A stretch of 40,150 nt of DNA, from the NCBI GenBank assembly GCA_007571315.1, contig RKRP01000082.1, positions 1-40,150 of the forward strand. Direction: 5' to 3'. The stretch is from Gammaproteobacteria bacterium. GTDB lineage: Bacteria; Pseudomonadota; Gammaproteobacteria; Steroidobacterales; Foliamicaceae. The position numbers and the translations under genes are program-made. Below, in pieces: positions 9,853 through 40,150 of the stretch. The notes beneath the pieces are model-generated. The model saw nothing but the letters and a program-made list of their open reading frames with translations, had not been told where the DNA came from and made no database searches. Position 1 is the first letter of the stretch, and every line of letters starts with the position of its first letter.

Positions 9853-11079
9853 TCAACTTAGCGTTTGGGTGAGCGTGGGCATGTCCTTGTCCCCGCGGCC
9901 GGACAATCCAATGAGTATGCGCTTGCCCGGATTTTCCCGCGCCCATGCGCGCGCCGCGAACAGCGCATGGGCAGGCTCCAACGCCGGAAGGATGCCCTCC
10001 AGCCGGCAACATTCCGCCAGGGCCTCCAGGGCCTGTTCGTCGCTGGCGGCAAGGTAGGCGGCCCTTCCGACAGCTTGCAGCAGCGCATGCTCGGGCCCCA
10101 CGCCCGGATAGTCGAGGCCGGCGGAAATCGAGGAAGTCTCCAGTACCTGGCCGTCGTCGTCGTAGAGCAGCATGGAATAGCTGCCGTGCAACACCCCCGG
10201 CTTGCCGGCGCAAAGCGAGGCGGCGTTCTGGCCCGCGCCCGGCCCCTTGCCTCCGGCTTCGATGCCGAAAATGCGCGCCGACTCGTCGCCCAGAAACGCA
10301 TGAAACAGGCCTATGGCGTTCGAACCGCCGCCCACGCAGGCAAACACCGCATCCGGCAACCCTCCGGCGGATTGCGCAAACTGCTGGCGCGCTTCTTCGC
10401 CGATGATTTTTTGCAACTCGCGCACCAGCCAGGGATAGGGATGCGGGCCCACTGCCGAGCCCAGCAGGTAATACACGCCATGAGGGTCCGCCACCCATGC
10501 GCGGAAGGCTTCGTCGGTTGCCGCGCGCAGGGTTCGGTCGCCCTTGTCCACCGCCACCACTTCCGCTCCAAGCTGCCGCATGCGCTGCACGTTTGGCGCC
10601 TGCCGTTCCATGTCCAGCGCGCCCATGTACACCGCGCAGGGCAGTCCAACGCGGGCGCAAGCCGCCGCTGCGGCAACGCCATGCTGGCCTGCGCCGGTTT
10701 CAGCCACCACCTGCGCCGCGCCCAGACGGCGCGCCAGGTGCGCCTGGCCCAGCGCGTTGTTGATCTTGTGAGCGCCGGTGTGCGCCAGGTCCTCGCGCTT
10801 GATCCACACTTGCGCCCCCCAGGCCCGCTCCAGGCCCCGAGCGCGGGTAAGCGGGGTGGGGCGTCCGACCCATTCGCGCCGTTCCTCATCCAGGGCGCGG
10901 CAGGCATCCTCATCGGCGAAGAATTGGCGCGCCTGGCGTTCCAGCCGGAACAGCGCGGGCATCAGCGTCTCCGGCGCGAAGCGCCCGCCGAACGGGCCAA
11001 AGCGTCCTTCGCTGTCCGGCAGTTCACCGCTCAGCAGCGCAGCCATAAGGGAACGCGCTTCCGCTTCCTGGATTTTCAT
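9853..11079 (-). CDS. trpB: Tryptophan synthase beta chain
   Basis: GRPTPLTRARGL, REDLAHTGAHKINNALGQA (PLP lysine), ETGAGQHGVAAA, ACVGGGSNAIGLFHAF. ORF 9853..11286 trimmed to ATG 11079. Confidence 0.96.
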   Translation of the reverse strand: MKIQEAEARSLMAALLSGELPDSEGRFGPFGGRFAPETLMPALFRLERQARQFFADEDACRALDEERREWVGRPTPLTRARGLERAWGAQVWIKREDLAHTGAHKINNALGQAHLARRLGAAQVVAETGAGQHGVAAAAACARVGLPCAVYMGALDMERQAPNVQRMRQLGAEVVAVDKGDRTLRAATDEAFRAWVADPHGVYYLLGSAVGPHPYPWLVRELQKIIGEEARQQFAQSAGGLPDAVFACVGGGSNAIGLFHAFLGDESARIFGIEAGGKGPGAGQNAASLCAGKPGVLHGSYSMLLYDDDGQVLETSSISAGLDYPGVGPEHALLQAVGRAAYLAASDEQALEALAECCRLEGILPALEPAHALFAARAWARENPGKRILIGLSGRGDKDMPTLTQTLS

Positions 11080-11687
11080 CGTTGGGCGCTCTCCGCCCGG
11101 CGCGCCGCGCGCACGAACGCGCTCACCTTGGCGCTGTCCTTCACACCGGGCGCGCTTTCCACGCCCGAACTCACGTCCACGCCCCAGGGACGGACCCGGC
11201 GGACGGCATCGCCGACATTGCCGGGGTCCAATCCGCCAGCCAGCACCACCTGCGCGCCGCGCGCCAGCATGGCGGCGCGCTCCCAATTCGGCCGCTGGCC
11301 GCTGCCGCTAACGCCGCCTTCGAACAGGCAACAGGTTCCGGGCGGCACATCGTTCGGGTGGAATTCTTCATGGTCTCTATACACCGGCAGGGCCCGCATG
11401 CCTGGGGGCAGCGCCAGCCGCGCCAGACTGTCGGCATCCGCCTGCAAGCAGTCCGGCTTGAACCCGGCATATACCTCATCCCATTGGCTCTGGCCGGGGC
11501 GGAGCATAACCGCAACGCGCAGAATTTGCGGCGGGGCAGCTGCGGCAAGCGCGCCCGCGTCTTCCGGCGCGAGGTAGCGCGGCGATGGCGGGTAAAAGTT
11601 GAAACCGATAGCGTTGGCGCCCGCCGCCGCCGCCGCTTGCACAGTTTCGGTGGTTTTAAGACCGCAGATTTTCACGAACAGAGTCAT
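11076..11687 (-). CDS. trpF: Phosphoribosylanthranilate isomerase
   Basis: VKICGLKTTETVQAAAAAGANAIGFNFYPPSPRYL...VLAGGLDPGNVGDAV...GVDVSSGVESAPGVKD. Trimmed to ATG 11687. Confidence 0.95.
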   Translation of the reverse strand: MTLFVKICGLKTTETVQAAAAAGANAIGFNFYPPSPRYLAPEDAGALAAAAPPQILRVAVMLRPGQSQWDEVYAGFKPDCLQADADSLARLALPPGMRALPVYRDHEEFHPNDVPPGTCCLFEGGVSGSGQRPNWERAAMLARGAQVVLAGGLDPGNVGDAVRRVRPWGVDVSSGVESAPGVKDSAKVSAFVRAARRAESAQR

Positions 11688-12514
11688 TGCGGCGCCCGGC
11701 TCCGCCGGCCCTGCGAAAGCATCTCTCTGACCAGCGCGGCGGGGTTCGGCGAGCGCATCAGCGCAGCCCCCACCAGCGCGCCGTCCCAACCCTGGGCGGC
11801 CCGCTCCGCCACATCGCGCGCATCCGCCATGCCGCTTTCGGCGAACATGGCATGAGCGCCCGCGCCGCGCGGGCGGAAACGGCTGAAGCGCTCCGTGTCC
11901 ACGGCCAGCGTGCGCAAATCGCGGCAGTTGAGGCCTAGCAGCGCCTGATTGCGCGGCGCCGCCAGCCGCTCGGCGATGCTCCGGGCGCGTTGCAGTTGGT
12001 CTTCGTTGAAGGCCTCCAAAAGCGCAAACATTCCGCAGCCCAGGGCCGCGGCCAGCATCGCTTCGGTATTGGCATCGCCGGTTAAGCCCACAATCAGAAG
12101 CACGCCCGCCGCGCCATGCTTCCGGGCTTCCAGAACCTGGTAAGGCTCCACCAGGAAGTCCTTGCGCATGACCGGCGTGCGGGGCGCGGCGCGTGCCACT
12201 GCGGCGAGCAGTTCCAGAGAGCCGCCAAACCGGCAAGGTTCGGTGAGCACCGACAAGGCCGCGGCGCCCCCCGCCGCATACTGGGCGGCCAGCCCTTGCG
12301 GGTCGAAGGACAGTTCCGCGAGCTGGCCCTCGCTGGGGGATGCAGGCTTGATTTCCGCGATCAGCTCGAAGCACCCGGGCGCCAGACTGAGCTGCTGCGG
12401 CGGCGGCAAGGCATCCACGCGGCGCCGCAGTTGCGCCGCGCTAAGGCTTTGTTTGGCCGCCGCGGCGCGTTCACGGCTCAATTCCGCCATGCGCTCAAGA
12501 AATCCTGCGTTCAT
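11684..12514 (-). CDS. trpC: Indole-3-glycerol phosphate synthase
   Basis: IAEIKPASPSEGQL, AALSVLTEPCRFGGS, VMRKDFLVEPYQVLEARKHGAAGVLLI, LGLNCRDLRTLAVD, FAESGMADARDV. Trimmed to ATG 12514. Confidence 0.95.
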   Translation of the reverse strand: MNAGFLERMAELSRERAAAAKQSLSAAQLRRRVDALPPPQQLSLAPGCFELIAEIKPASPSEGQLAELSFDPQGLAAQYAAGGAAALSVLTEPCRFGGSLELLAAVARAAPRTPVMRKDFLVEPYQVLEARKHGAAGVLLIVGLTGDANTEAMLAAALGCGMFALLEAFNEDQLQRARSIAERLAAPRNQALLGLNCRDLRTLAVDTERFSRFRPRGAGAHAMFAESGMADARDVAERAAQGWDGALVGAALMRSPNPAALVREMLSQGRRSRAPQ

Positions 12515-13530
12515 CCCGCCCTGATGCTCTCCAGCAGGTGCGCCGCCCGCCCTTCGCGCAATGCCTCGCGGGCCGCTTGCAGTCCCTCGGCCGGCCCGCT
12601 CGCTTTCCCGGTGAGTTCGAGCGTCAGCCCAGCCTGCAGGGCCAGCGCGTCGCTCAGCGCCGTGCCGCCCTCGCCGCGCAGGGCGGACTCGAGCGTTTGG
12701 GCGTTGTATTCGCGGTCGCCGCCTGCCAGGGCCTCCGGCGCGCATCGCGCAATGCCCAGATCAGCAGGGTCGCGCGTCATCGAATCGATTTGGCCCGGCC
12801 GAACGTCCAGCAGCAGGTAGCGGCCAACCGGAGTCGGCTCGTCCCAGCCCGGTTCGCCGTGAACCACGAAACAGCGCTTGATGTCCAGTCCGCTCAGCGT
12901 TTCAGCAATCAGCCGCGCCGCGCGCTTGCTGAACGCCCCCACCAGCATGTGCGGCGGGCGCGCCGGATTGGCCAGCGGCCCCAGCAGATTGAACACGGTG
13001 GGAACCCCAAGGGCGGCGCGCACCGGAGCTACGGATTTCATGGCCGGATGAAAATACGGCGCGAACATGAAGGCGAAGCCGTGGTTTGCCAGCAGCGCCG
13101 TCACCTCTGCGGTGCCGACCGGCAGGGGCACGCCCAGCGCTTCCAGCACATCGGCGCTGCCGGTTTTGCTGGACACGGCTCGATTGCCATGCTTGGCAAT
13201 CCGCACTCCGCAGGATGCCGCCAGCAGCCCGGCTCCGGTGGACAGGTTGATGCTGCCGGAACCGTCGCCTCCCGTTCCCACCACATCCGCAACCGGTTCG
13301 CCCGCCGGCAGTTCGGGCCGAATCGCCAGCGCCCGCATGGCCCGCGCGAAACCGCGCAGTTCGTCGGCGTTTTCCCCTTTCAGGCGCAGGGCGGCGAGCA
13401 GCGCTCCGGCCAGCGCTTCCGCCACCTTCCCCTGAGCGAGTTCGCGCATGGCGGCTTCAGCTTCGCTTTCTTCCAGAGACCCGCCTGCCAGAAGCCGCGC
13501 CAGCATCCCGCGCAAAGGATCAGAGCTCAT
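12511..13530 (-). CDS. trpD: Anthranilate phosphoribosyltransferase
   Basis: VVGTGGDGSGSINLSTGAGLLAASCGVRIAKHGNRAVSSKTGSADVLEALGV. Trimmed to ATG 13530; overlaps the stop of the upstream transporter gene. Confidence 0.96.
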   Translation of the reverse strand: MSSDPLRGMLARLLAGGSLEESEAEAAMRELAQGKVAEALAGALLAALRLKGENADELRGFARAMRALAIRPELPAGEPVADVVGTGGDGSGSINLSTGAGLLAASCGVRIAKHGNRAVSSKTGSADVLEALGVPLPVGTAEVTALLANHGFAFMFAPYFHPAMKSVAPVRAALGVPTVFNLLGPLANPARPPHMLVGAFSKRAARLIAETLSGLDIKRCFVVHGEPGWDEPTPVGRYLLLDVRPGQIDSMTRDPADLGIARCAPEALAGGDREYNAQTLESALRGEGGTALSDALALQAGLTLELTGKASGPAEGLQAAREALREGRAAHLLESIRAG

Positions 13531-15353
13531 AGGCCATACATGATCGGCAGCAGCAAGGAGAAGCCGCTCCACATGATGAGCGTTAGCGGCGCGCCAATGC
13601 GCAGGAAATCCATCCGCCGGTAACCGCCTGCGCTCATGATAAGAAGGTTGGTCTGATAGCCGATGGGGGTAAGAAAACTCATGTTGGCGCCAAAGATTAC
13701 CGCCAGGATGAAAGGCTCCACCGGCGCTCCCAGCCCGGCGGCGAAAGAGGCGGCGATCGGGGTTCCGATAATCGCTGCGGCATTGTTGGACACCACGTTG
13801 GTGAGTATCGCCATCATCAGCATCAGGCCGCTGAGAATGAGCGGGATAGGCAAGCCCGCGGAAACCGCCACAAACAGCTGCGCCAGCCACTCGGCGGCGC
13901 CGGTTTTCAACAGGGCCTGTCCAAGTCCCAGGCTGGCCACGATGATGATGGTGAGCGGCACGTTGAAGGCATCCCGAACGTTGCGCCAACTGAGGCATTT
14001 CGCAGCGATCATGAGGCCAACCCCGGCCACTGAGGTAAGCACGATGGGGAGCAGGCCAAGCGCGGCGGGCGCAATCACCAGCGCCAGGATGCCCACCGCG
14101 GCGCGGGCCCTTCCAGCGCGCGGCAGCTCGATGACCCGCCCCAGCACCAGCATTGAGGACTCGGTGGCCAGACGGCGGATTTCGGCGCGATTGGCCTGCA
14201 CCAGCAGCACGTCGCCAGTGCTCAACTGTGTGTCAAACAGATCCTTGGCCTGCGTTTCGCGGTCGCCTGGACGGTAGATGGCCAGCGGTGTGAGACCGTA
14301 GATCTCGTCGAAGTGGGCCTCCCGGATGCTGCGCTTGTCCAGCGGCGAGCCGCGTGTCACCACCAGTTCCGCCACCTGCTGCGGCTCGTCGGAATAGCGC
14401 AGTTCGCCGCCCGGCAACGATGCGCCCAGCAGCTCCTCGTACTCGTGCAGCCGCTCTATGGTGTCGCGGACCAGGATCTGATCCCCGGCCTGCACCCGCG
14501 TTGTGGGCAGCGGCGACAGGTGGACCTTGCCGCGCCTTAATATGCTGGTTACCTTCAAGGTGTTGTTGGCGCGCTCGCGGATCTCGGCAAACGCCTTGCC
14601 GTCCGCGAACCCTCCAGCCCGCACCTGCAGCGTCGAAGCGAAAAACCGGCTGGCGGTTTGCAGCGGCAGCCTGCGTTCAGGCACCAGCCTGGGCGCCAGC
14701 AGCCAGAGGAAGGCAAGCGCCACGCTGCCCACCAGCAACACCGGCAGCGAGAAGGAGAACATGCCGAACGGTTCCAGGCCCAGATCCTGTTCGGCAATTC
14801 CCGCCACCAGCAGATTGGTGGAGGTGCCAATCACCGTGGACATGCCTCCGATCAGGGTTGCGAAACCCATCGGCAGGAGAATGGCCGAAGGCGCCTGATG
14901 AGCGCGCAGCGCGGCGGCGGTGAGCACCGGCAGCAGCATCACCACCACCGGAGTGTTGTTCACGAAAGCGCTGAACACTGCCGACCCCACCAGCGTCAGC
15001 AACGCCGCCAACAGCGGTTGACGGGTCCACAGCCGGGTGAAGAACAGCGCCACAGGACGCAGCGCGCCGGTGGTTTCCAGTCCCTTGCCCACCACCAGCA
15101 GGGCGGTGATGGTTACCAGCGCTTCATGGCCCAGGTTCTGGAAGAAATCGGTCGAGCGGATCACCCGCTCGCCGCCGTGTTCCAGCGGCCAAAGCTCGAA
15201 TCCCAGCAGCAGCAGCAGCAGAATGCCCATGCCGGCGGTTTCCAGCGGGATGCGGTCGCGGGTAAACAGGTACAGCGCGAAGGCGGTGAGCAGCATCACC
15301 ATGAGAGCGTGCGCGCCCGGGAATTCCGGCAAGATCCACCTCGTAAAGGCCAT
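13527..15353 (-). CDS. SLC13-family permease with TrkA-C-like domains
   Basis: Multiple hydrophobic TM stretches; FVNNTPVVVMLLPVL; ATLIGGMSTVIGTSTNLLVAGI; ILTNVVSNNAAAIIGTPIAAS; soluble RCK/TrkA_C-like insert in the middle. Confidence 0.85.
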   Translation of the reverse strand: MAFTRWILPEFPGAHALMVMLLTAFALYLFTRDRIPLETAGMGILLLLLLGFELWPLEHGGERVIRSTDFFQNLGHEALVTITALLVVGKGLETTGALRPVALFFTRLWTRQPLLAALLTLVGSAVFSAFVNNTPVVVMLLPVLTAAALRAHQAPSAILLPMGFATLIGGMSTVIGTSTNLLVAGIAEQDLGLEPFGMFSFSLPVLLVGSVALAFLWLLAPRLVPERRLPLQTASRFFASTLQVRAGGFADGKAFAEIRERANNTLKVTSILRRGKVHLSPLPTTRVQAGDQILVRDTIERLHEYEELLGASLPGGELRYSDEPQQVAELVVTRGSPLDKRSIREAHFDEIYGLTPLAIYRPGDRETQAKDLFDTQLSTGDVLLVQANRAEIRRLATESSMLVLGRVIELPRAGRARAAVGILALVIAPAALGLLPIVLTSVAGVGLMIAAKCLSWRNVRDAFNVPLTIIIVASLGLGQALLKTGAAEWLAQLFVAVSAGLPIPLILSGLMLMMAILTNVVSNNAAAIIGTPIAASFAAGLGAPVEPFILAVIFGANMSFLTPIGYQTNLLIMSAGGYRRMDFLRIGAPLTLIMWSGFSLLLPIMYGL

Positions 15354-15408: not shown

Positions 15409-16737
15409 TCAGCCGTTTGCGGAGGCTCGAAACAGCGCCCATGCGCGGCGCAGCAGCTGCTCGTAATCGGCCCGCTCCAGCCGCGCGCGAACCCGGCTGC
15501 CGTGCATAGTGATGTTGTCCGCAACGCGGATAACCGGCAGCAGGTTCAGCCACGCCCGCGCAGGGATGCGGGTGGGTTGGCGCGGCAGCACGCAATACGG
15601 CGACAGCGCCAGCAGTTGCCGGTGGCGCGGGCTGCGCCGGGCAATAATCTGCCGCGCCCGCGCCTGGCCGTAGCGGGGAACCAGCATTTGCACCAGTTGC
15701 TCCGCGTCCAGGGCCGGATACGGCCCGCGTTCCCGGGCCAGGCGCATGGATTCGCGCAGAAGCTGGCGCTTGAACAGGCCGAGCCAGCGCTGAATGGTCA
15801 CCACCGTGGACTGTTCCTGCGGGTCCATGCCATGCCGCAGCGCCAGGTCTCCGATGCCCGTTACGTGCGCTGCCAGACGACGGTTGGCGCGGGCATCGGC
15901 TTCAAGATTTCCAGACGGCCAGGAAACGCAATCAATCAGGTTGTCCACCAGCCGCGCGCCTACGCGCACCAGCTTTTTGAGATGACCCACGCCCCTTTCG
16001 ATCTGTTCCACTGGAATTGTGCTCAAATCGAATTGCATGCCCAGCCAGGCGGTGTCCGCCGGCGCCTCAAACAGGCTCAAGGGCATTACGGTGTCCGGCG
16101 TTTCCCTGCCCGCCAGTTCGGTGAGGGGCGGCCTGTCGCCGCGCAGGACCAGGTCGATTCCGGATTGCTTGTGGCTGGCGTCGATCAGTTGGGTCCACTG
16201 CGCTCCTGATCCGAAAATTTGCGGGCCAACCCGCACCACCGCGCCTGTGCCCGCCAGACGGCCGCTGCGCGCCGCTTCAAGCAAAGCGGCGCATCCGGCG
16301 TGCTCGGCCTGCAAGGACATGGCAACGTAAGACGGCGCCTGTCCGGCCTTGCGCATCTGCTGCAATTCGTCGGCGAGGGTGGTCAGCCATGCGTCGAAAA
16401 ACCGCGGCGACATTCCAGACAGATCAACGCCCAGCGCCACTTCCTGCCCCTTCAGGCGGGAAACGCGCTGGCGGAATTTTCCCAGCGCCGGGCCGGACTG
16501 CTCGGGCGGCTCGTCTTCAGGGACATCAAGCGCAAAAGCGCATTGCCCGGCAATGGCGTGCTGGTTTCCCTCCAAGCACCCGTAATCGAACGGCAGCGGC
16601 CCGATCGTCCGGCCGCTGAGCAGGCGCTCAAAGTAGCCGCGCCAGCGTTCCGGTTCGTTCTCCCGCCGAACAGCGATATCCGCCAGCGCGCGGGAAAGCG
16701 CGGCTCGCTCGCCGATGCCTGCGGGTGGCGCATCCAT
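15409..16737 (-). CDS. Uncharacterised protein, possibly ribonucleotide-reductase-related
   Basis: Long ORF in the same strand and GC regime as flanking backbone. VRVGARLVDNLIDCVSWPSGNLEADARANRRLAAHVTGIGDLALRHGMDP resembles the RNR large-subunit segment (DNxID ... NRRIGLGVxGLADxL). Family assignment tentative. Confidence 0.5.
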   Translation of the reverse strand: MDAPPAGIGERAALSRALADIAVRRENEPERWRGYFERLLSGRTIGPLPFDYGCLEGNQHAIAGQCAFALDVPEDEPPEQSGPALGKFRQRVSRLKGQEVALGVDLSGMSPRFFDAWLTTLADELQQMRKAGQAPSYVAMSLQAEHAGCAALLEAARSGRLAGTGAVVRVGPQIFGSGAQWTQLIDASHKQSGIDLVLRGDRPPLTELAGRETPDTVMPLSLFEAPADTAWLGMQFDLSTIPVEQIERGVGHLKKLVRVGARLVDNLIDCVSWPSGNLEADARANRRLAAHVTGIGDLALRHGMDPQEQSTVVTIQRWLGLFKRQLLRESMRLARERGPYPALDAEQLVQMLVPRYGQARARQIIARRSPRHRQLLALSPYCVLPRQPTRIPARAWLNLLPVIRVADNITMHGSRVRARLERADYEQLLRRAWALFRASANG

Positions 16738-16865: not shown

Positions 16866-17894
16866 TTAACACGGAGCACGTTTGTTTGAGGACGGGGAAG
16901 CAAACACACCTTCCAATCTTTGGTTTATGGCCAGAGCTAATTCACAACCATGATTTCGCGTGTTGTCTGTAACTACCTTTTTTGCTCCCGTTGCCTTGAT
17001 ATAGGCAAGTGTCTCGTTGAAGTCCGCATGGTTGGAGAGAGACACTCTGTAGGCTCGGTCTGAGTATTGCAACAGCGGGTTATTGCTCGGAACCATATAC
17101 GCACTGCAAGTGATGCTCGTGCCATCCATTGGCTCATTTCTGAAGCCGTCCCCCTTGGAGTAAAGATGCACAAAAGACTTCTCCTGCATTGCAAGCTGAC
17201 CGACTTCAGAATCAGCCCAAAGTAATTCTCCTGCGGCCAGTCCGTAGTCTTGATAGACCTCGACCTCCTTGATTAGACGAGCAGTTGCGATTATGGGCAC
17301 GCCAATGTTGTCGCTAAGCACATGCAGGACTCTTTCTATAGTTCCCCGGTGAGCGTAGATATGCACTGGCCCCTGTCGCAGTTGACCGAAAACGAGGCTG
17401 GAGAGACATTCTTCGGCCGCTGCTTGCGTATAGTGTCGGACGCTTCTCGGGCTTCCGTAAGTGCTATCGACAACAAGTTGATCGACCTCTATAACTTTTC
17501 CAAGCGGCCAGCCGAAGTCGCCCGAGTAACCAATCCGCAATCCATCTGTTCGTTGCAGTGTTACTTGGCACGAACCGAGCATGTGGTTGGAAGGAAGCAA
17601 ACACAGATGTGAGCCATCCTCCAGTTCAAATTTCTTTCCGCAACCCAGCCTGTGAAAATTGTCGCGGTACTCAAGATCAGCATTCTTTTCCGCAACCAAT
17701 AGCGAGTAGGTTTCCGGGCGCATTACTAAATCCTGCAACCCTTTACTCGTTTCAAATTTGATCATGTGATCATCATGCACATGGGTCTGGACTCTTATTG
17801 GAAATCCTTCCGCAAACCCATCGCAGGTGACGCTTGATCCAAGGCAGATGGTGCCGTCTCTCAGGACATCAACGATTTGCTTGACCATACTCAA
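16866..17894 (-). CDS. Metallo-beta-lactamase/beta-CASP-type nuclease (exonuclease-like)
   Basis: HVHDDH (HxHxDH) metal motif, PSNHMLGSCQV, YSGDFGWP, VDSTYGSPR, C-terminal SLSNHADFNETLAYI and a late H (NHG). ORF starts at TTG 17894; an in-frame ATG lies at 17888. Confidence 0.8.
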   Translation of the reverse strand: MSMVKQIVDVLRDGTICLGSSVTCDGFAEGFPIRVQTHVHDDHMIKFETSKGLQDLVMRPETYSLLVAEKNADLEYRDNFHRLGCGKKFELEDGSHLCLLPSNHMLGSCQVTLQRTDGLRIGYSGDFGWPLGKVIEVDQLVVDSTYGSPRSVRHYTQAAAEECLSSLVFGQLRQGPVHIYAHRGTIERVLHVLSDNIGVPIIATARLIKEVEVYQDYGLAAGELLWADSEVGQLAMQEKSFVHLYSKGDGFRNEPMDGTSITCSAYMVPSNNPLLQYSDRAYRVSLSNHADFNETLAYIKATGAKKVVTDNTRNHGCELALAINQRLEGVFASPSSNKRAPC

Positions 17895-18594
17895 GAGCTT
17901 TGGATATTTGTTTTCTTATTAGCGCCTCGAGATTTTCTTGGCCGAGTTCCACCATAGACTCGTTGAACTCGCTGCCGCCCACCAGCGTGAAGAACCGCGA
18001 ACCTAGGCGGCCATGGGCGTGATGCAATTCCGTCGCCTTCAGTCCCGACTCCAGTATCGAATCTCTTTCATCCTGCTTCATATCTGCCAGCACACCAGTT
18101 ATCTGCGGGCTGTTAAGGGTGCCAATGAACACATAGCGTTTTTCGACTGTTGGCCGCATCCCTACAATTTCTTGGACGCACTCTTCAATCAATCGTCGGG
18201 AGCGTGAGCGAAGTTGACGCACTTGCTGCACTTCCCTCGCTTTAAGTCCTTCTTCTAGGATAGCGTTAGCCACGAAACGCTGGTCGGCATTATCCTCAAA
18301 GCGTGACAGTTCCACTGCGGTCGAGAATCCGATTGTCTGCTTGCTAGCGCCCCAATCTACGAGGTGTTGCAAGTCATTCGGCAATTTAAGTATCTGCAAA
18401 AAACGCCCAATGTGGCCGGTTCCATTTAGGCGGATTGCTTCCGCGCATTCGCTTAGCGATGCACCGGTGTCCCGTGCTCGGCGTAGAAGCGAACCCACCT
18501 CGATTGGGGAAAGCGGACGTCCCTTTTTCTGCCTTCCATAACCAACCGACATTATTAGGCGACCAAGCTCTTCCTGGCTGATGTTTGCTAACAT
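17869..18594 (-). CDS. ParB/KorB-HTH-like protein lacking the ParB N-terminal CTPase motif
   Basis: LSPIEVGSLLRRARDTGASLSECAEAIRLNGTGHIGRFLQILKLPNDLQHLVDWG resembles the HTH region of ParB-like proteins; adjacent to a full ParB-like gene; GAGG upstream of the ATG. Confidence 0.6.
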   Translation of the reverse strand: MLANISQEELGRLIMSVGYGRQKKGRPLSPIEVGSLLRRARDTGASLSECAEAIRLNGTGHIGRFLQILKLPNDLQHLVDWGASKQTIGFSTAVELSRFEDNADQRFVANAILEEGLKAREVQQVRQLRSRSRRLIEECVQEIVGMRPTVEKRYVFIGTLNSPQITGVLADMKQDERDSILESGLKATELHHAHGRLGSRFFTLVGGSEFNESMVELGQENLEALIRKQISKALEYGQANR

Positions 18595-18599
18595 CCAAT

Positions 18600-19424
18600 C
18601 TAATCCTCAAGCAGGCCACGACTTGATAGCGCTTCATCAATTAGCATGCTTGCCGCGCCATCTCGCGTTGTCCCCTCTTCACGTGCATAGCGCCCAATCG
18701 CGGAGTGGGTATCCTCTGTTACGGATACGATAATTTGAATAGTCCTTGGTCCACTCTTCGCATCCTCAATAACGTCGTCTATTGGCTTGTCTTGGTTCTC
18801 TTTGCGGTCCTGCACGATCTTCTTGCGTTGGTTATTGGTCATTGGTTCCATTTCGAGCGCAAGTCGAATGGCTTCTTCCACATTAACCACGTTGTTTTTG
18901 TTTCTGCACGCATCCTGCGCTTTCAACGCCACTTTGAGTTCAATTTTGCCCTCGTCAACCATGCTCTTCAACTTAGGCTCCAACCGCGGATATTTGACGT
19001 ATTCCAGAACCTTGTTGTAGGGCAGGCCTGTTTTGTTCACAACCGCTTTTGCGGTTCCGTAAATTTTGTATAGATAGGTCACTCCGTCAATCAATTCGTT
19101 ACCGGTGAGTCTCCGGCGAATAAGGTTTTCGGTGATAGAGATTGCCTTGGCTTCCGCCTCCTCTACCCGTTCGTCAATTACAGCCGCAGCAATACTGTTG
19201 CGCCGAAGCGTTTTGTGAGCAAGAAAACGCCGCTGGCCTGCAAGGATCTCCCACTTATCGGCTTGGTGAGCGGGGCAGACTACGATGGGTTGAAGAAGAC
19301 CCTGTGCTTCAATACTTTGGGCCAAGTCTTCAATACCTTGTCCAGGGTCCGCCGTTCTGATTTGCCCCTTGCCGATCACCAATTGATCGAGCGGAATGTC
19401 GCGATATTCAACTATTTTCGCCAT
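18600..19424 (-). CDS. ParB-like N-terminal domain protein (ParB/Srx fold)
   Basis: YRDIPLDQLVIGKGQIRT...GIEDLAQSIEAQGLLQPIVV...WEILAGQRRFLAHKTLRRNSIAAAVI...AISITENLIRRRLTGNEL = ParB boxes I/II. Strong SD AAGGAGG overlapping the end of the upstream gene. Confidence 0.88.
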   Translation of the reverse strand: MAKIVEYRDIPLDQLVIGKGQIRTADPGQGIEDLAQSIEAQGLLQPIVVCPAHQADKWEILAGQRRFLAHKTLRRNSIAAAVIDERVEEAEAKAISITENLIRRRLTGNELIDGVTYLYKIYGTAKAVVNKTGLPYNKVLEYVKYPRLEPKLKSMVDEGKIELKVALKAQDACRNKNNVVNVEEAIRLALEMEPMTNNQRKKIVQDRKENQDKPIDDVIEDAKSGPRTIQIIVSVTEDTHSAIGRYAREEGTTRDGAASMLIDEALSSRGLLED

Positions 19425-19428
19425 TGAT

Positions 19429-20847
19429 TCAACCTCCTTGATTTTGGACTTCGGTTGGCAGTATGTCGCCGTCCGTAATCTCGAGAATTTGCATTAGCTC
19501 CCTCCGGGTAAATTGATGCGCTTGAGAATCGCTTGATCCCGAATCCACCATATTATCGAACAAGAGCTCTTTTCGTTCCAAAATGTTTGCTATTCGCTCT
19601 TCGATTGAGTCACAGACCAAAAACCGGATTACATGCAAGGGATATTCTCGTTCAAACCGGTGTGCCCTGAAAATCGCCTGAGATTCAACTGCCGGGTTCC
19701 ACCATCTGTCAAATAACACGACATGCGTAGCTTCGCCCAGATTTAGACCCACGCCCCCTGCTTTCAGCGAAACAAGCAAAGCACGAGGAGTATCTGCCTT
19801 CCTGAAGTGGTTCATTGCTTCATATCTGGCTGATGCAGACATGGAACCTGTCAGGAGATCATGCGGGATTCCAAGTCTCTTGGAAATCCATTGAAGCGTC
19901 TTGACGAATTGCGAGAATATGAGGATGCGGGCAGACCCTCCTGCGCTATCCGCAATAGCCTCCAAGGCTTCAAGTTTGGATGAAGCATTGTCTGCTGAGC
20001 TGTAATTGCACAAAATCTTCAACTTGGTTATCAGCCCCAGTAAGGCAGTGCTTGAATCCGTACCCATTTGTTCTGTTCTCAACGTGTCAACTCTCTCCAT
20101 CCATAGCCCGTCGTACTCTTGTCGCTGGGGGGCTGTGAGTTCCAACTGTAAGTCTTGAAAGATGACGGGCGGCAATTCCTTTCGAACATCGACTTTGCGC
20201 CTCCTGAGCATGAGCGATTCAATCTGCGCCGCCAAATTAGCCGTGGACATGCCTTTGCGCATAGAAGGATTCAGAAAACCTAGAATTGACATTAGGTCAT
20301 CCTCGCTGTTTTCCAGTGGCGTGGCGGAGAGCGCCCAGGCTCGAGTTCGTGGCAAGATGCGGCAGCCAAGAGCAGTGGCGGAATTCCTGTTCTTTATCCG
20401 CTGCGCTTCATCAAGAATGACTAGATCGAAAGTCCCGGAGGGTATGCGGTCAATGGCATCCTGGCGAATTTGTTCATATGAGCCAACAAGAACAGGAATA
20501 GGGAGCAGGTAATATGCTTCGCGTGATTTGCTCGGCCCTTGTATCAGCCTTGTCGTTAGCGAGGGCGACCAAGTTCCCAACTCACTCATCCAATTGGCAG
20601 TCAATGATGCCGGGGCAACAATCAACGCGCGGTTTATATCGTTATTTCCATTTAGGAGCAATGCCAGCGCCACGGCTGTTTGCACCGTCTTTCCCAGCCC
20701 CATTTCGTCTGCGAGCAGAGCAGACCTCGAACGGTAAAGGTAAGCTACTCCTTCCCATTGGTAATCATGTAGTTTCTTGGGGACATTGAGCTGGCTCTCA
20801 GCAAGACTCCGAAGTTTTCCGGCGTCCGGCATCAGGCGAATTTCCAC
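19429..20847 (-). CDS. Compact SNF2-family helicase/ATPase
   Basis: LHDYQWEGVAYL, LLADEMGLGKTVQT (Walker A), DLVILDEAQRIKN (motif II), SATPLEN, SLKAGGVGLNLGEATHVVLFDRWWNPAVESQAIFRAHR (motifs V/VI). Confidence 0.93.
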   Translation of the reverse strand: MEIRLMPDAGKLRSLAESQLNVPKKLHDYQWEGVAYLYRSRSALLADEMGLGKTVQTAVALALLLNGNNDINRALIVAPASLTANWMSELGTWSPSLTTRLIQGPSKSREAYYLLPIPVLVGSYEQIRQDAIDRIPSGTFDLVILDEAQRIKNRNSATALGCRILPRTRAWALSATPLENSEDDLMSILGFLNPSMRKGMSTANLAAQIESLMLRRRKVDVRKELPPVIFQDLQLELTAPQRQEYDGLWMERVDTLRTEQMGTDSSTALLGLITKLKILCNYSSADNASSKLEALEAIADSAGGSARILIFSQFVKTLQWISKRLGIPHDLLTGSMSASARYEAMNHFRKADTPRALLVSLKAGGVGLNLGEATHVVLFDRWWNPAVESQAIFRAHRFEREYPLHVIRFLVCDSIEERIANILERKELLFDNMVDSGSSDSQAHQFTRRELMQILEITDGDILPTEVQNQGG

Positions 20848-22610
20848 ACCCTGACCGCGACCTTCGCCATTTCATTTTGTCTGTGTTGAACTGACTCCGG
20901 GTTCCAACCGGAAAATTCTGTGATTTTTCGTGTGATCTTTAGGCCACTGTTCCTATAGCTTTCCACTTTCTTGCCAAAATTACCGTTAAATTCGGGTCCG
21001 GGCTTGTTATCTGCCGGCCCCATCAGCGTGAGATTACCCAGTCTGTGTACCCATGCGCCCTTATCTATATCCAAGAAGCCATCCCAACTTTCCCAATGAT
21101 CAGGAGACTTTGGGAGTATGTGTTCTATCGTGCACATCTCTTGATTCAAAATCTGGAAATCTGCCTGAACTTCAGTGTTGATTCCCAGCAAGAATAGCTT
21201 GATCTTTCTCTTGCCTGTCATCCTTGATTCAGCCATCGTTTTGCGAAACCTGGAATCATCTAGCACACCATACGCTGCGTGATCACATTCATGCAGAAAT
21301 CGTGCAAAGCCAGCGTCTGAAAGATCATCAACCGTCATGATTTCTTTAGAGAAATTCGCAAAGGCGGATTCAAAGCGTGAAGGTTCAAATTTTGGCGCTA
21401 CAAAAGCCGTCCTTAGCACGAATGCGCTCAATAGCCGAAGATTTTTGTTGATCACTTTAGCAATGCGCTTTCTATGGCGTAGGTCGGTTTCTTTCAGGTA
21501 CCGGGTCAGCAGGGCGAATACTAGAGGCTGAGCGACTTTATATCCGTTCAGCTCCTTGAGATAGACGGAGATATTTCTTTTCGAATTGGTAGTTCTCGAA
21601 TCAACTTTGAAAGGCTGGATCAAATCTGGGCTTGGAACTGGAGCCGTGATTGTGCGAAACAGCTCGAGTTGCTCCCGCGACGTTATTTGTTTCGTAAGCG
21701 TAAATGCGTAATCAGCGCGCGTTTGTGATTCGACCTGCCTTTTGTCACCTTGAGTCAGAATTGCACGCCGGGCATCACGGTAGAACTGATCCTTGCGAAG
21801 AAACCCAAATATGCATTGCAACTGACATCGCATGTATTCCTCAGCCTTTATGGCATTTGGAAACACAGGCCGAATGTCTTCGAGATGTTCATGGATTTTT
21901 TTTCTTCTCTCGGCTTCGCCCTCAGAGTTGAAATAGGAATACAGATGATTCCGAATAAGGTCCAGTGCGCCCAAAGTTTTTCCTCGATAATTGAGCGTCT
22001 CAAATACAGCGTTTGAATCAATGCTTGCAGGTACCCAGAGGCACGCGATTTCAAGCCTCTGTAGGACGTAGGTTAGGTATTTTTCACACAGTTCCGTACT
22101 CATCCCCGAGAAGAAGCCGCTAACTTCCCTCCAGGCTACCGTGAATTTGCCATTAGTTCCAATGGTATTTCCGCAAATCACTTGTTTGAAGTGCATCTCG
22201 TCGTTTTGCGGCGGGGTGATTCGTGGAGTGTAGTGATTTGCGTCATCCAGTTTCCATGCGCTTCGCCGGTGTAGGTCGAACAGCAACTGCAAAGCCAGTC
22301 CTTCGTACTGAGAGCCCGGAGATTGAAGGGCAAAGTGTCGACAAAGTACTGCGCAAATGATTGACAGAGTGATCATCCGCTGCTGCCCATCGTTGATTTC
22401 CCAAAGCCCTTCTTCGATGCGCACAAGCATCACGGCACCAAGAAAGTAGCATTCCCGGCCTTCTTCCATAGCACCAGCAATGTCGTGCAGCAGGTCGCGA
22501 ACATGCCTGCGGTCCCAGTCGTAGTATCTTTGGTGCCAAGGAACCCGAAACCGCCCTTTATGAAATAGCTCGGAGCACAACATCGCTTCGGACTTGATGG
22601 TGGTGCTCAT
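20832..22610 (-). CDS. DUF262 + C-terminal HNH (DUF1524-like) protein, GmrSD/SspE-type architecture
   Basis: N-terminal RFRVPWHQRYYDWDRRHVRDLLHDI...YFLGAVMLV...WEINDGQQRMITLSII (DUF262); FETLNYRGKTLGALDLIRN; C-terminal CTIEHILPKSPDHWESW...HRLGNLTLMGPADNKPGPEFNGNFGKKVESY (HNH/DUF1524). Confidence 0.88.
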   Translation of the reverse strand: MSTTIKSEAMLCSELFHKGRFRVPWHQRYYDWDRRHVRDLLHDIAGAMEEGRECYFLGAVMLVRIEEGLWEINDGQQRMITLSIICAVLCRHFALQSPGSQYEGLALQLLFDLHRRSAWKLDDANHYTPRITPPQNDEMHFKQVICGNTIGTNGKFTVAWREVSGFFSGMSTELCEKYLTYVLQRLEIACLWVPASIDSNAVFETLNYRGKTLGALDLIRNHLYSYFNSEGEAERRKKIHEHLEDIRPVFPNAIKAEEYMRCQLQCIFGFLRKDQFYRDARRAILTQGDKRQVESQTRADYAFTLTKQITSREQLELFRTITAPVPSPDLIQPFKVDSRTTNSKRNISVYLKELNGYKVAQPLVFALLTRYLKETDLRHRKRIAKVINKNLRLLSAFVLRTAFVAPKFEPSRFESAFANFSKEIMTVDDLSDAGFARFLHECDHAAYGVLDDSRFRKTMAESRMTGKRKIKLFLLGINTEVQADFQILNQEMCTIEHILPKSPDHWESWDGFLDIDKGAWVHRLGNLTLMGPADNKPGPEFNGNFGKKVESYRNSGLKITRKITEFSGWNPESVQHRQNEMAKVAVRVWKFA

Positions 22611-23755
22611 ACGGATGCGCTCTCATGCTGTGGCGACAGGGCTTTGCGCAAGGCGGAACGACAGTCTTGCCGCACCGAGTCTCTGCGCCAGATATCCTGG
22701 ATCACTTCCACTTCGCCTCGAGAAATCAGTTGTTTCCCAACTCTTAGCTCCAATGCTTGCAATTCAGACAAAATTTTCTTGCGCACCTCAATCCTGAATG
22801 GTCCGCGGACTAGCGTTCCGTTACTTCGCCTGCGGAAGTTGCCATCACGGCGAACTCGCTGACGATTTGAATCATTTTCACGAAGCTCTACCAGCCATTC
22901 CCGAAAATCATAGAGGTGCTCAAACAATCTCACATCTTTGTGTCCCGATTTGATTAGACCCTGCAAGCTTCGATCTTTTTGAACCACCGTGCATGTCCAG
23001 CATCCAAATCTTGGAGAAGTTGTTCCGCATGAAGGGGCATCCTCTTGAGAGAGCACCAATGGACATTCGCCGCCAGCAGCATTTCGGTACAAGGTGATCA
23101 GGTTTTGATGCGTGCCGCCCCATGGGGGGTTCCGCTGCATTAGTGTCAGCCAGACATCCTCGTCTTCAAATTCGGCCAAAGGTGCGAACATTCGGCATCC
23201 TTCCACAGAACTGTGGGGGTTCATTTTGGTCGCGGAAACCCCATGTTTCTCCATATTTCGCCGTCGCGCTGACGATTCGCTCTTGCGTGTCCCAATGAGC
23301 AATACAACTCGCCTGTGTCTGCTTACCAAACTGTCAAGCAAGTGGCTGGTTGGCAGAATCTTCATCCGGTCCGTACACCAACGGAAATTTCGTGTTGGCG
23401 GTATGTAGCCACGCCCGATGACGTTGACCCAAAACGTTTGGTCTATGTGCGGCCGGGTGATTTCTGCGGTGATGGGCAAATCTTGCGACAAGGCTGCGCT
23501 TGAGATTGTCCTTATAGTTTTTCTGAGATGCCTGATGACGAGCGGTGATTCAACAAGCGTGTCATTGCCAATCACGTATAACCTGCGGTTACGCTCAGAC
23601 GCTTCCAGATCTGCCAGCAGTTCCCAAACAAGTTGCAACAGGAGTGTGGAGTCCTTTCCGCCTGAGTAAGCAACTACCCAAGGATCAGTGTGCGCCCGCA
23701 TGTATTCGGTACGCAGCACTTCTTTGGCGCACATGAGTTTTTCTGGAATATTCAT
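22607..23755 (-). CDS. dndC: DndC-like phosphoadenosine-phosphosulfate-reductase-family protein (ATP-pyrophosphatase / Fe-S)
   Basis: AYSGGKDSTLLLQLVWELL (PP-loop), GNDTLVESPLVI, NFRWCTDRMKI, GGECPLVLSQEDAPSCGTTSPRFGCWTCTVVQKDRSL (DndC-type Fe-S cysteines). Start set to ATG 23755 (MNIPEKLM), preceded by GAGAGGAG; the longer ORF runs to 23809. Confidence 0.9.
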   Translation of the reverse strand: MNIPEKLMCAKEVLRTEYMRAHTDPWVVAYSGGKDSTLLLQLVWELLADLEASERNRRLYVIGNDTLVESPLVIRHLRKTIRTISSAALSQDLPITAEITRPHIDQTFWVNVIGRGYIPPTRNFRWCTDRMKILPTSHLLDSLVSRHRRVVLLIGTRKSESSARRRNMEKHGVSATKMNPHSSVEGCRMFAPLAEFEDEDVWLTLMQRNPPWGGTHQNLITLYRNAAGGECPLVLSQEDAPSCGTTSPRFGCWTCTVVQKDRSLQGLIKSGHKDVRLFEHLYDFREWLVELRENDSNRQRVRRDGNFRRRSNGTLVRGPFRIEVRKKILSELQALELRVGKQLISRGEVEVIQDIWRRDSVRQDCRSALRKALSPQHESASV

Positions 23756-23805
23756 GTGACTCCTCTCGGTACCGCCCGGTAATCCATCCATAAGGTTTTT
23801 CGGCC

Positions 23806-25065
23806 TCATGCCAATACCGCATGGCTTGTTTCATCAGGTACCTTAAAGTTCTTCTTGGATGGTTGCTGCTTTTTCAGACCTTTGGATAATTGGCGCAACA
23901 TGTTTACAGCTTCGGCAACATGCGCTGCGGCGAAATCAACTTCCGCTTCATTGGTGTACCTCCCAAGGCTGAAGCGCACAGAGCAATTTGCAAGTTGTTC
24001 GGGAACACCAAGCGAACTCAGCACATGTGATGATTCAATATGCGAGGATGTGCAGGCGGAGCCCGAGGAAAACGCAATGTTTGGCATGGACATCATTAGA
24101 GATTCACTTGCTACTCCAGAGAAACCAACATTTAGTATTCCCGGAGTCCGGTATTCTTGATTGCCGTTGAAGAAGGAATACTCAATGGCAGCCAGATGCG
24201 AGCGCAATGCAGTATCTAGCGCTGTGATCACCTGCATGTCCTGATCTCTGCATTCGTTGGCCAATTTCGCTGCTGCGCCCATACCAACGATTTGATGCGT
24301 TGGTAAGGTGCCAGAACGGACACCCCGTTCCTGGTTGCCCCCATGCATCTGCGGTTCAATTGGAAAGTGGCGCCTGCCACGAACGAATAAGGCCCCCACC
24401 CCCTTTGGGCCGTACATTTTGTGTGCGCTCAGCGAGATTAGATCCGCCTTGATTTCACGAGTATTTATCGGCAATCGTGCGGCACTTTGCGCTGCGTCCA
24501 CATGGAATACTATTCCTCTGGCGCGGGTGATTTCCGAGATGGTGCTGGTGTCTGTAATCGTGCCTACTTCATTATTTACGTGCATCAGGGAAACTAGGAA
24601 TGTGTCCTCTGTCAATGCGTCCTGCACTATTTCTGGGCAAATCATGCCTTGCGAATCCGGCTTGAGAAAGGTGACCTGATAACCCTTATCCGCCAATTGG
24701 AGGCATGTATCTATGACAGCCTTGTGCTCCAAACCTGAAGTCACGATATGCCGCTTGCCGTCCGGATTGGCGTAAGCCACGCCTTTGATTGCCAAGTTGA
24801 TTGATTCCGTTGCTCCCGAGGTCCAATAGACTTCTTCAGGATTGGCGCTAATCAGTTCAGCCACTTGCTCTCTGGCGCGCTCAACTGCTTGCTCCGCCTC
24901 TCTGCCGAAGCGGTGAGACCGAGAAGAGGGATTACCAAACATTCCATCCAATCCCAAGTAACGATTCATTTCAGCAACTACTTGAGGAGCTACGGGATTG
25001 GTGGCTGCGTAGTCAAGATAGACACTCTTGCCTTCTACAGCCGACAAATTTAACTGTGTGCTCAC
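23806..25065 (-). CDS. Cysteine desulfurase (IscS/DndA-like)
   Basis: VYLDYAATNPVAPQVV, TSGATESINLAIKG, HVNNEVGTI, HVDAAQSAARL, SLSAHKMYGPKGVGALFVR (PLP Lys), SSGSACTSSHIESSHVL (catalytic Cys), GRYTNEAEVDF. GTG start with AAGGA upstream. Confidence 0.92.
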   Translation of the reverse strand: MSTQLNLSAVEGKSVYLDYAATNPVAPQVVAEMNRYLGLDGMFGNPSSRSHRFGREAEQAVERAREQVAELISANPEEVYWTSGATESINLAIKGVAYANPDGKRHIVTSGLEHKAVIDTCLQLADKGYQVTFLKPDSQGMICPEIVQDALTEDTFLVSLMHVNNEVGTITDTSTISEITRARGIVFHVDAAQSAARLPINTREIKADLISLSAHKMYGPKGVGALFVRGRRHFPIEPQMHGGNQERGVRSGTLPTHQIVGMGAAAKLANECRDQDMQVITALDTALRSHLAAIEYSFFNGNQEYRTPGILNVGFSGVASESLMMSMPNIAFSSGSACTSSHIESSHVLSSLGVPEQLANCSVRFSLGRYTNEAEVDFAAAHVAEAVNMLRQLSKGLKKQQPSKKNFKVPDETSHAVLA

Positions 25066-26507: not shown

Positions 26508-28868
26508 TTAACCGGAGCCGGTGGCCGGCTGCAGCGGCCAGAACACCGGCAGCGTCAGCATCACCACAATGAACACCAGCAGGGTTAGCGGCACGCCGGC
26601 GCGGATGTAGTCGGTGAAGCGGTAATTGCCGGGCCCCATAATCAGGATGTTGGCGGGATGTGAAATGGGACTGGTAAAACTGGCGGATGCGGCCATGGCC
26701 ACGGCCATCATCGCGGTGGTGGGCGCAATGCCAAGCGAGGCGCTGGCGGATAGTACCACCGGAGACATCAACACCACCAGCGCAGCGGTGGGCACGATCA
26801 TGGTGGCCAGCGCGGTAACCAGGTAGAGACCTCCGATCACGTACCAGGGCCCCAGGTTGCCGAGGAGGTCCACAGCGGTGCTGGCCAGCAGGCGGGCCGC
26901 GCCCGTATTGTCCAGAGCGACCCCCAGCGGCAGCATGCCGGCAACGAGAAACACCGCCCGCCAGTCGATGGCCCGGTAGGCATCTTCCATGCTGAGGCAT
27001 CGGATCAGCACCATCAGGGTGGCTCCGATGAGAGCGGCTATGGAAATAGGCAACCAGCCAGAAAGCACTGCGCCAACAACGCCAATCATGACCAGGCCGG
27101 CGTAGCGCTTGCGGGGACGGCGCGGCACAAAGGGCGTAACCTCAATGAACGAGGGATCGTTGGCCAAACGCCGCAAGTTGTCGCGGGGCCCCACAAGCAG
27201 CAGCGCGTCGCCAAAGTTGAGCCGCTGGGTTTGCAGGTCGGTGTGCAGCGTTTTTCCGGCCCGCCGAACGGCCACCAGCTCCAGCCCGTATTTCTGGTTG
27301 AACCCGATTTCTCCCGCAGTGCGTCCTGCAAGGCGGGACAGCGGCGCCAGCGTGACTTCTTCGGTTGCCAGCCGCTCGGAAGCGTACAGATTAAGCGCCG
27401 GCGTCATTTCCTCCTCGATCCGCAGTTCCTGCACCGCGCGCAACGTTTCCAGGTCCGCTCTTCGCGTTTGCAGCAGCAGCCGGTCGTCCTCCTGAAAGAC
27501 TTCGTCGGGGCCCGGGATGAAGCGCACTTCCTCATCGCGGCTGATCGCCAGCAGCCGGAATTGGAGCGCTTCCGCCAGCCGCGTTCGCGCATAGGCCGCT
27601 CCAACCAGCGGCGAGCCGGCCGCAACGCGCAGGCTGATGACCCGTTCGTCGGGCCGGTACAGTTGTTCCACCGCGGCCTCGTCGAGTTCCACCACTTCGT
27701 CGAACCCTTCCAGTCCACGCGCCAGGTCGGCGGTATCGACCAGACCCTGCAGCAGCAGGTAATCGCCGGCGCGCAACGGGAGCCGGTCCAGGCCGGCCCG
27801 CTCCACCCTGCCGCCGCGCCGCACCGCGATAACCAGCCCGCGCGTCTTTACCTGCATTTCCTGGCGGTTAACCGGATTCTGGATGAGCGTCGACCCCTGT
27901 GCCACACGCGCCTCCACCATGCGCAGGTGCTCGGTCATCGGCAGATTGGCGGCCAGCAACTCGCCCTTTTCGATTCCCGCCTGCCAGGCCCGCAACTCCT
28001 CAATATTGTCCCGCCGGCCCTGCACCAGCAGCCGGTCCCCCTCCTTGAGAACCGTTTGCCTGGAGGGCAGCCGAATGATGCGGCGGCCTCGTTCGATGGC
28101 GATGATTACCAGCCCCAGGGCTGCGATGCGGCTGTCGGCCAGGGTTCGCCCTGCGAGCTTGGAGCCGCTGTTCAGCGACACGGTGAACATGAATTCGCGC
28201 AAGCCGTAAAGCGCCCGCAGGTTGCGCTGGCTGGGCGTTCTGGCGAATTCGCCGACGGCCCGCGTGGGGAGCAGCCGTCGGCTGAAAAGCACAAAAAACA
28301 GCACGCCCGCCAGCATTGCGGCGCCGCCCACCGGCAAAAAATCAAACAGCTTGAAACTGTGAGCCCCCTGCTCCGCCAGCGCGGCGGACACCAGCAGGTT
28401 GGGCGGCGTGCCAATCTGGGTGGTCAGCCCGCCCAGCAGGCAGCCGAAGGACAGGGGCATGAGCAGCCGCGAAGGAGGCACTCGGGCCCGGCGGGCCAGT
28501 CCCATCACCACCGGCAGCATCAGCACCGCCACGCCAATGTTGTTCATGAAGGCCGACAACCCGCCCGAGGCAAGCATGATGACTGCCACCAGCGCGGCTT
28601 CGTTGCGGCCGGATATGCGCAGCATGTATCGCCCTATCAGGTCGCCCGCGCCGGTTCGCAACAGCCCCTCGCTGATGATGAACATGGCCCAAAGCGTAAT
28701 GACGGCCTCGTTGCTGAAGCCCGCCACCGCTTCGGCGGGCGTGACCAGGCCGGTGATGGTGAGCGCGCCCACCACCAGCAGCGCCACAATATCCATGCGC
28801 AGCGCCTCGGTCACGAACAGGACCAGGGCGATCACAAGGATCGTGATGACCAGGGCAATGTCAAACAT
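26508..28868 (-). CDS. SLC13-family permease with TrkA-C domains
   Basis: FMNNIGVAVLMLPVVMGLA, MPLSFGCLLGGLTTQIGTPPNLLVSAAL, RCK/TrkA_C-like repeats, IVPTAALVVLMSPVVLSAS. Confidence 0.88.
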   Translation of the reverse strand: MFDIALVITILVIALVLFVTEALRMDIVALLVVGALTITGLVTPAEAVAGFSNEAVITLWAMFIISEGLLRTGAGDLIGRYMLRISGRNEAALVAVIMLASGGLSAFMNNIGVAVLMLPVVMGLARRARVPPSRLLMPLSFGCLLGGLTTQIGTPPNLLVSAALAEQGAHSFKLFDFLPVGGAAMLAGVLFFVLFSRRLLPTRAVGEFARTPSQRNLRALYGLREFMFTVSLNSGSKLAGRTLADSRIAALGLVIIAIERGRRIIRLPSRQTVLKEGDRLLVQGRRDNIEELRAWQAGIEKGELLAANLPMTEHLRMVEARVAQGSTLIQNPVNRQEMQVKTRGLVIAVRRGGRVERAGLDRLPLRAGDYLLLQGLVDTADLARGLEGFDEVVELDEAAVEQLYRPDERVISLRVAAGSPLVGAAYARTRLAEALQFRLLAISRDEEVRFIPGPDEVFQEDDRLLLQTRRADLETLRAVQELRIEEEMTPALNLYASERLATEEVTLAPLSRLAGRTAGEIGFNQKYGLELVAVRRAGKTLHTDLQTQRLNFGDALLLVGPRDNLRRLANDPSFIEVTPFVPRRPRKRYAGLVMIGVVGAVLSGWLPISIAALIGATLMVLIRCLSMEDAYRAIDWRAVFLVAGMLPLGVALDNTGAARLLASTAVDLLGNLGPWYVIGGLYLVTALATMIVPTAALVVLMSPVVLSASASLGIAPTTAMMAVAMAASASFTSPISHPANILIMGPGNYRFTDYIRAGVPLTLLVFIVVMLTLPVFWPLQPATGSG

Positions 28869-35411: not shown

Positions 35412-35592
35412 CCCCTCCCTGGCGTGAGCGGTCGTGGCCGGTTGGATTCGGGCAGCGATCTAAGGGTTTATTATTTATGTAAGTGGCCAGAACCGCTTAC
35501 CACAAAAAACGGCAGCATCAATCACCGATTACACCTTATTTCCGCCGCCAACTTGTTCGGCGAGTGAGACACGTTTCATTCCAGTTCGAGTA

Positions 35593-36433: not shown

Positions 36434-36640
36434 CCTTTCTCCTTGCCCTTCCTGCTTGAGCGTCTCGTGCAGGGTGAGATGGCCGTAGCGGGGATAGCGC
36501 TTGGCTAGGGCTTTCATCCGATCACGCAGGTCCGCATTGTCTCTGCCCTTCGGCCGATACTAGGCTGCCTAACGGGACAGTCCCACTAGGCAGCAGGCCC
36601 GGCGCGCGCTGGCCGCAGCGGCGATTGGTTAAATACCAAC
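36434..36640 (-). mobile_element. IS3-family transposase (OrfB) remnant with internal stops
   Basis: Minus-strand translation ASARRACCLVGLSR*AA*YRPKGRDNADLRDRMKALAKRYPRYGHLTLHETLKQEGQGERS, typical of the N-terminal IS3 OrfB region; two in-frame stops; no intact transposase. Confidence 0.75.
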
Positions 36641-36660
36641 GGAATGCGCGGGCGGGCGCA

Positions 36661-39750: not shown

Positions 39751-40150
<400 letters not shown>

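Follow-up and report, generated by a model that had tools for sequence, protein, structure and literature searches.

The DNA analysed here is a stretch of 40,150 nucleotides from a gammaproteobacterium of the Foliamicaceae (contig RKRP01000082.1, assembly GCA_007571315.1; this whole stretch is called the window below). On its minus strand, at 16866-25065, it carries an operon of seven coupled open reading frames (ORFs) in the following order: cysteine desulfurase (CysD), DndC, DUF262-HNH, SNF2, ParB, ParB-HTH and MBL. With a probability of about one half, this locus is an undescribed DndC-based variant of phosphorothioation-type defence composed of two parts: (i) a sulfur core free of DndD and DndE; and (ii) an exchangeable module of four genes (SNF2, ParB, ParB-HTH and MBL) that likely serves as the restriction arm. 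The sulfur chemistry is rated as known; what is rated as new is the partner module, together with the absence of DndD/E and SspB.

The gene set is conserved well beyond the window. A DndC search over 85,462 species genomes returned 80 loci, on which the seven proteins were then run by tblastn. SNF2, ParB, ParB-HTH and MBL were found together with DndC and DUF262-HNH in a further 20 loci spread over eight phyla (L002-L010, L012, L013, L018, L020, L022, L023, L026, L028, L029, L034 and L049), which bears out the conserved neighbourhood that a first-pass annotation of this DNA had proposed to look for. Eighteen of the 20 are collinear; the two halves of L026 diverge, and the MBL gene of L023 lies 4 kb off. 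The desulfurase adjoins DndC in 16 of these loci; the remaining four (L003, L018, L020 and L034) may use the housekeeping IscS. In a further locus, L015, the contig finishes at SNF2. Junctions are conserved too, being commonly -4 nt for CysD>DndC>DUF262 and about -20 nt for ParB-HTH>MBL. Core and module co-evolve: their distances are correlated with a Mantel r of 0.921, and none of 5000 permutations reached as high a value. Since the DndC tree mixes phyla, transfer between phyla is suggested. No homologs of the module were detected in viral contigs, in plasmids (ParB-HTH and MBL queries) or in phages (ParB-HTH query), and the MBL proteins of the divergent loci described below, when compared with plasmids and phages, retrieved generic or repair exonucleases only, or nothing. 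The profile scans also gave weak ParB-HTH hits in Acidobacteriota (E 4e-12 at best), a few of whose short loci were inspected by tblastn; they were taken as ordinary ParB proteins. A second DUF262-HNH gene stands in L029 directly after MBL, on the opposite strand (10676-12424, minus).

Other contexts of core and module alter how the operon is to be read. Profile scans of genomes with ParB-HTH and MBL (some genomes were shared between the scans) yielded two new strong, divergent copies, G448 and G1540, both of which adjoin DndC, as does every strong module match found. In G448 (L107:2-11065), ParB-ParBHTH-MBL-SNF2-DUF262-HNH is convergent with DndB-DndC-DndD-DndE. In G1540 (L116:5890-16922), one coupled operon reads DndC-DndD-DndE-SNF2-ParB-ParBHTH-MBL-DndA-DndB and contains no DUF262-HNH. 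MBL identity in L107 and L116 is 39-56%. Conversely, in five loci of the same DndC clade (L011, L014, L017, L021 and L032) the DndC-DUF262-HNH pair is followed by a small GIY-YIG protein and a DndB-family protein, with no module; these families were assigned by scanning representatives. In 13 genomes the module was not observed at the locus, and 9 of them lack DndE altogether. Since the DndD/E-free core occurs without the module, it is independent of it; and since L116 and L107 have the module together with DndD and DndE, the module appears to be an added, exchangeable arm and not a one-for-one replacement. The module-free arrangement, (CysD-)DndC-DUF262HNH-GIY-YIG-DndB (L011:11119-14528 and L014:11179-14583, as well as L017, L021 and L032), is a DndD/E-free sister layout that may be another undescribed phosphorothioation variant. 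In L033 (1581-8355), a DndD/PbeC-type ABC ATPase and a DndE-HerA fusion lie directly upstream of a window-like DndC-DUF262HNH pair (families scanned on a cluster member).

The usual partners of DndC were sought in the whole genome of the window (91% complete) and in the 20 carrier genomes, which are incomplete assemblies. DndE (PF08870) is absent from 19 of these 21 carriers, including that of the window, and over-cut-off DndD is absent from the same 19, with none in the genome of the window at E 1e-10; in the other two carriers, both occur together. As DndD and DndE are missing from as many as 19 genomes, assembly incompleteness is an implausible cause. DUF4007 (SspB, PF13182) was found somewhere in eight carriers but not in the other 13, that of the window among them, and 13 carriers (again including the window's) have neither DndE nor DUF4007. 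No SspC/BrxC ATPase is encoded in the operon, to which that search was confined. One DUF4007 gene, with an internal stop (G413:C3:2481366-2482232), apparently lies ~8.6 kb upstream of the core in L023, provided that C3 and the L023 contig are identical.

The first-pass annotation had named seven minus-strand genes at these positions; the ORFs are present, and profiles confirmed the families assigned to them, DndA/DndC-type sulfur chemistry included. The desulfurase matches PF00266 (3.7e-79), has its SGSAC motif at residue 334 and fits both PADLOC models equally (SspA 4.5e-150, DndA 6e-148), while falling under the TIGR03235 DndA equivalog cut-off (394 vs 480). The DndC protein passes the curated cut-off of TIGR03183 (337.5 bits vs 290.4) and, in PADLOC, matches the DndC model at 3e-112 compared with 1e-6 for SspD. 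Its cysteines C145, C249, C261, C270 and C273 are invariant across the alignment of relatives and retained in those DndCs that adjoin DndDE. DndC is a member of the PP-loop superfamily, which also thiolates tRNA bases; in the TIGR profile search, weak matches to TilS/TtcA were obtained as well. No match was returned for the DndC profile among solved structures.

In the DUF262-HNH protein, both GmrSD domains (PF03235 GmrSD_N and PF07510 GmrSD_C) score over cut-off. The protein had been likened to phosphorothioate-sensing effectors, in agreement with the fact that its closest solved relative is DndI (9jfl, E 2e-30, compared with 1.6e-19 for SspE, 6jiv). Its DGQQR and HNH residues are invariant in 24 of 24 sequences. 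DndI is a phosphorothioate-sensing nickase that senses the mark via Y25 (PMC11662687). The same region of the window protein bears the signature PWHQRYYDW (residues 24-32), in which Trp25 is nearly invariant.

Regarding the module, SNF2 is a clear member of its family (PF00176 4e-44; PF00271 1e-20), with 69% mean column identity in the alignment of relatives. The ParB protein is over the cut-off of PF02195 and just over that of TIGR00180 (59.3 vs 58.45); its solved relatives include Noc/ParB (E 5e-18), with CTP/CDP-bound ParB structures among the matches. It has the N-terminal nucleotide domain, whose motifs G-x-RR (GQRR) and E-N-x-x-R (ENLIR) are invariant in the alignment of relatives, and it resembles Noc and other ParBs dependent on cytidine triphosphate (CTP). 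At its C-terminus, a ribbon-helix-helix-like stretch is weakly indicated. The ParB-HTH protein matches PF17762 weakly (3e-4, 21.3 bits vs a cut-off of 22.6), and its AlphaFold2 model (pLDDT 90) has the fold of the Spo0J/Noc DNA-binding region (6y93, TMt 0.80), followed by an alpha/beta domain in the C-terminal part. The MBL protein is weak by Pfam and under the cut-off of TIGR04122 (2.5e-15), and clear by motifs and fold: the motif residues are all invariant in the alignment of relatives, and Foldseek matches its AlphaFold2 model (pLDDT 86.6) to beta-CASP nucleases with E down to 2e-14. Its annotated start is TTG, and a conserved Met3 is a possible start. Among size-matched beta-CASP structures, the best is SNM1A (4b87, TMt 0.70), which makes DNA a plausible substrate; RNA would also be possible.

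The following working model can be proposed, in which we infer the phosphorothioate mark, a module that restricts and does not modify, and every mechanistic step from gene anatomy and genomic context. The cysteine desulfurase would load sulfur, and DndC would activate it and transfer it to DNA. Most likely, the ParB pair would act as a CTP-gated, sequence-loaded clamp to which the SNF2 motor is recruited or tethered; SNF2 would then scan DNA and the beta-CASP nuclease would cut DNA lacking the sulfur mark. The module would thus most likely be a scanning and cutting arm comparable in role to DndFGH. The DndI-like DUF262-HNH protein, which is translationally coupled, would provide a second nickase, one that reads the mark through an altered sensing site. 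The restriction role is argued for by the position of the module inside a DndCDE operon (L116) and beside DndBCDE (L107), and by the closeness of DUF262-HNH to DndI.

Several points weigh against this reading. Were the module confined to restriction, the core would have to function with neither DndD/DndE nor SspB/SspC, and we know of no precedent for this. Only two divergent DndDE contexts with the module were found. Beta-CASP enzymes can act on RNA as well as on DNA. Finally, the position of the sensing Tyr25 of DndI is taken by His26 in the window protein (21 of the 24 sequences have His, 2 Tyr and 1 Arg), so mark sensing may differ from that of DndI; the Tyr is kept in the divergent L107 copy, which adjoins a full DndBCDE.

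The main rival is a modification role for the module. The first-pass annotation proposed that DndB/D/E or SspB/C are replaced by the ParB pair, SNF2 and MBL, which would recognize the target, remodel it and open the strands, with DUF262-HNH as the restriction arm. The part of this claim that stood is that the genome of the window has no DndD, DndE or DUF4007, and the wider absences among the carriers (19 of 21 for DndE and over-cut-off DndD, 13 of 21 for DUF4007) point the same way. Moreover, where the module is lacking, its place is occupied by another nuclease and a ParB-superfamily protein, namely GIY-YIG and DndB, and this would suit a shared role in access or targeting. Nevertheless, the claim is weakened by the presence of the module alongside DndD and DndE in L116 (in one operon) and L107, and by DndD/E-free cores that occur module-free in genomes likewise devoid of DndE, so that we regard replacement of DndD/DndE (or SspB/SspC) in modification as doubtful, if still a serious competitor. 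Equally tentative is its stronger form, a third, mechanistically independent route of DNA phosphorothioation in which CysD and DndC would be helped by ParB CTP clamps, SNF2 and beta-CASP, with sites chosen via ParB-type sequence loading. The restriction-arm and the modification readings both predict a phosphorothioate.

Other explanations depart further from the restriction-arm reading. The sulfur might end up not in the DNA backbone but in a thiolated base or in RNA, in a defence of another chemistry; this would accommodate the lack of DndD, DndE and DUF4007 in the genome of the window, the tRNA-thiolating PP-loop relatives and the weak TilS/TtcA matches, but it is rendered improbable by a DndC that is over its curated cut-off, shares its cysteines with DndDE-adjoining DndCs and has a DndI-like protein as its partner, as well as by the occurrence of the module within a canonical dnd operon. 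Two unrelated systems might merely be adjacent in a defence island, given that the halves are separable (core without module, module with other dnd sets, divergent halves in L026). Such accidental neighbouring was rejected, its chances being very small in view of the kept gene order and overlaps, the strong co-evolution and the fact that every strong module match found adjoins DndC. Slimmer still are the chances that the ParB pair is a KorB/DndB-like regulator of the operon and SNF2-MBL a DNA-repair pair for nicks left by the modification or by DUF262-HNH. The resemblance of ParB and HTH to Noc/KorB, the proximity of MBL to TIGR04122, a family of ligase-associated repair exonucleases, and its closeness to SNM1A among size-matched structures would fit that idea, but four genes with a motor and a nuclease have been kept together despite the 39-56% MBL identity of L107 and L116, which suits one complex better.

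Known systems share parts of this operon. Among the closest is IscS-DndBCDE-DndI of Salmonella (PMC11662687), which likewise has an IscS/DndA-type desulfurase, DndC and a DUF262-HNH protein (596 residues, 592 here) with DGQQR and HNH; in contrast, the window locus has no DndB, DndD or DndE, its genome has no DndD or DndE, His26 stands for Tyr25 and four extra genes are present. DndABCDE-DndFGH has the DndA/DndC chemistry and, as a separate arm, several genes that include an ATP-driven DNA motor and a nuclease, whereas the arm here consists of SNF2, a ParB pair and beta-CASP; family scans detected no match to DndF, DndG or DndH among the seven operon proteins. SspABCD-SspE/BREX type 4 also combines a cysteine desulfurase, a PP-loop sulfurtransferase and a DUF262-HNH nuclease (SspE), while the present locus has DndC instead of SspD, no genomic DUF4007 and a DUF262-HNH protein nearer to DndI than to SspE. 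DISARM, Dpd and Zorya have an SNF2 motor in an anti-invader operon (DrmD, DpdE and ZorD, respectively), and Dpd has the ParB-like DpdB as well, but matches are limited to the generic SNF2 core and no other component was matched. In the DndDE/CxC survey (Rakesh et al. 2024, PMC10853773), the modification core is defined by an ABC ATPase-DndE pair, which is missing here; text searches of the survey returned neither DUF262 nor MBL, and ParB and SNF2 in other senses only. Phosphorothioation, DUF262 and DUF1524 are enriched in sponge microbes (PMC5099237, PMC7848895, PMC6790972), and DndA/B/C-like genes are described in sponge Thaumarchaeota (PMC6790972, PMC7848895), where the four-gene module is unmentioned (no ParB, no SNF2). 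In PADLOC (v2.0.0, 2023), DndC and SspA/DndA have models of their own and DUF262 and SNF2 proteins are covered generically; none of its families fits the module, MBL and ParB-HTH being unmatched and ParB marginal only, in keeping with the earlier remark that no named system was known to have exactly this set. No description of the module was found in text searches of the open literature (5.39 million papers), a scope outside which most subscription papers and all bioRxiv preprints fall.

The operon is summarized in Table 1. The gaps between its genes, previously put at about 50 nt at most, are indeed small, but the layout is tighter than stated: neighbouring genes overlap by 4, 4, 16 and 26 nt or, elsewhere, are separated by 4-5 nt. 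The guanine-cytosine (GC) content is 50% in the operon, 66% in the left flank and 63% in the right flank, and the locus looks like a horizontally acquired island; no convincing direct repeats bound it, and no tRNA was found in the window.

Table 1. Genes of the seven-gene operon in the window, in order of transcription.
Product	Position	Strand	Motifs and remarks
Cysteine desulfurase (IscS/DndA/SspA type), 419 residues	23806-25065	-	SGSAC active-site loop
DndC-like sulfurtransferase, 400 residues	22607-23809	-	TIGR03183 over cut-off; SGGKDS ATP-pyrophosphatase motif
DndI/SspE-like DUF262-HNH nuclease, 592 residues	20832-22610	-	DGQQR at 74, EHILP at 496, GNLTL at 525
Compact SNF2 ATPase, 472 residues	19429-20847	-	Walker A DEMGLGKT, DEAQ box
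ParB-like protein, 274 residues	18600-19424	-	CTP-switch motifs GQRR and ENLIR
ParB-HTH-like protein, 241 residues	17869-18594	-	ParB-type HTH (about 26-130), no ParB N-terminal nucleotide domain
MBL/beta-CASP nuclease, 342 residues	16866-17894	-	HxHxDH at 38, H104, D126, NHAD at 288

The immediate neighbours of the operon are, on one side, a 442-residue ORF (15409-16737) of unusual size, with similarity to the ribonucleotide reductase barrel over 100 residues only (6e-7), and, on the other, a reductase gene. Citrate-transporter-like genes (CitMHS/TrkA_C) flank the island on both sides (13527-15353 and 26508-28868). Other dips in GC, at 34501-37500 and 39001-40150 (0.58, 0.58 and 0.54), may be further acquired segments.

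Whether DndD and DndE are necessary, and by which route DndC brings sulfur into the DNA backbone, is an unsettled question. A natural DndC lineage that spans many phyla, apparently without DndD or DndE, offers a smaller system in which the minimal machinery can be probed. The ParB/ParB-HTH/SNF2/beta-CASP module would be a new arm beside DndFGH, SspFGH, PbeABCD, SspE and DndI, and with it CTP-switch ParB clamps would enter the repertoire of defence by DNA modification.

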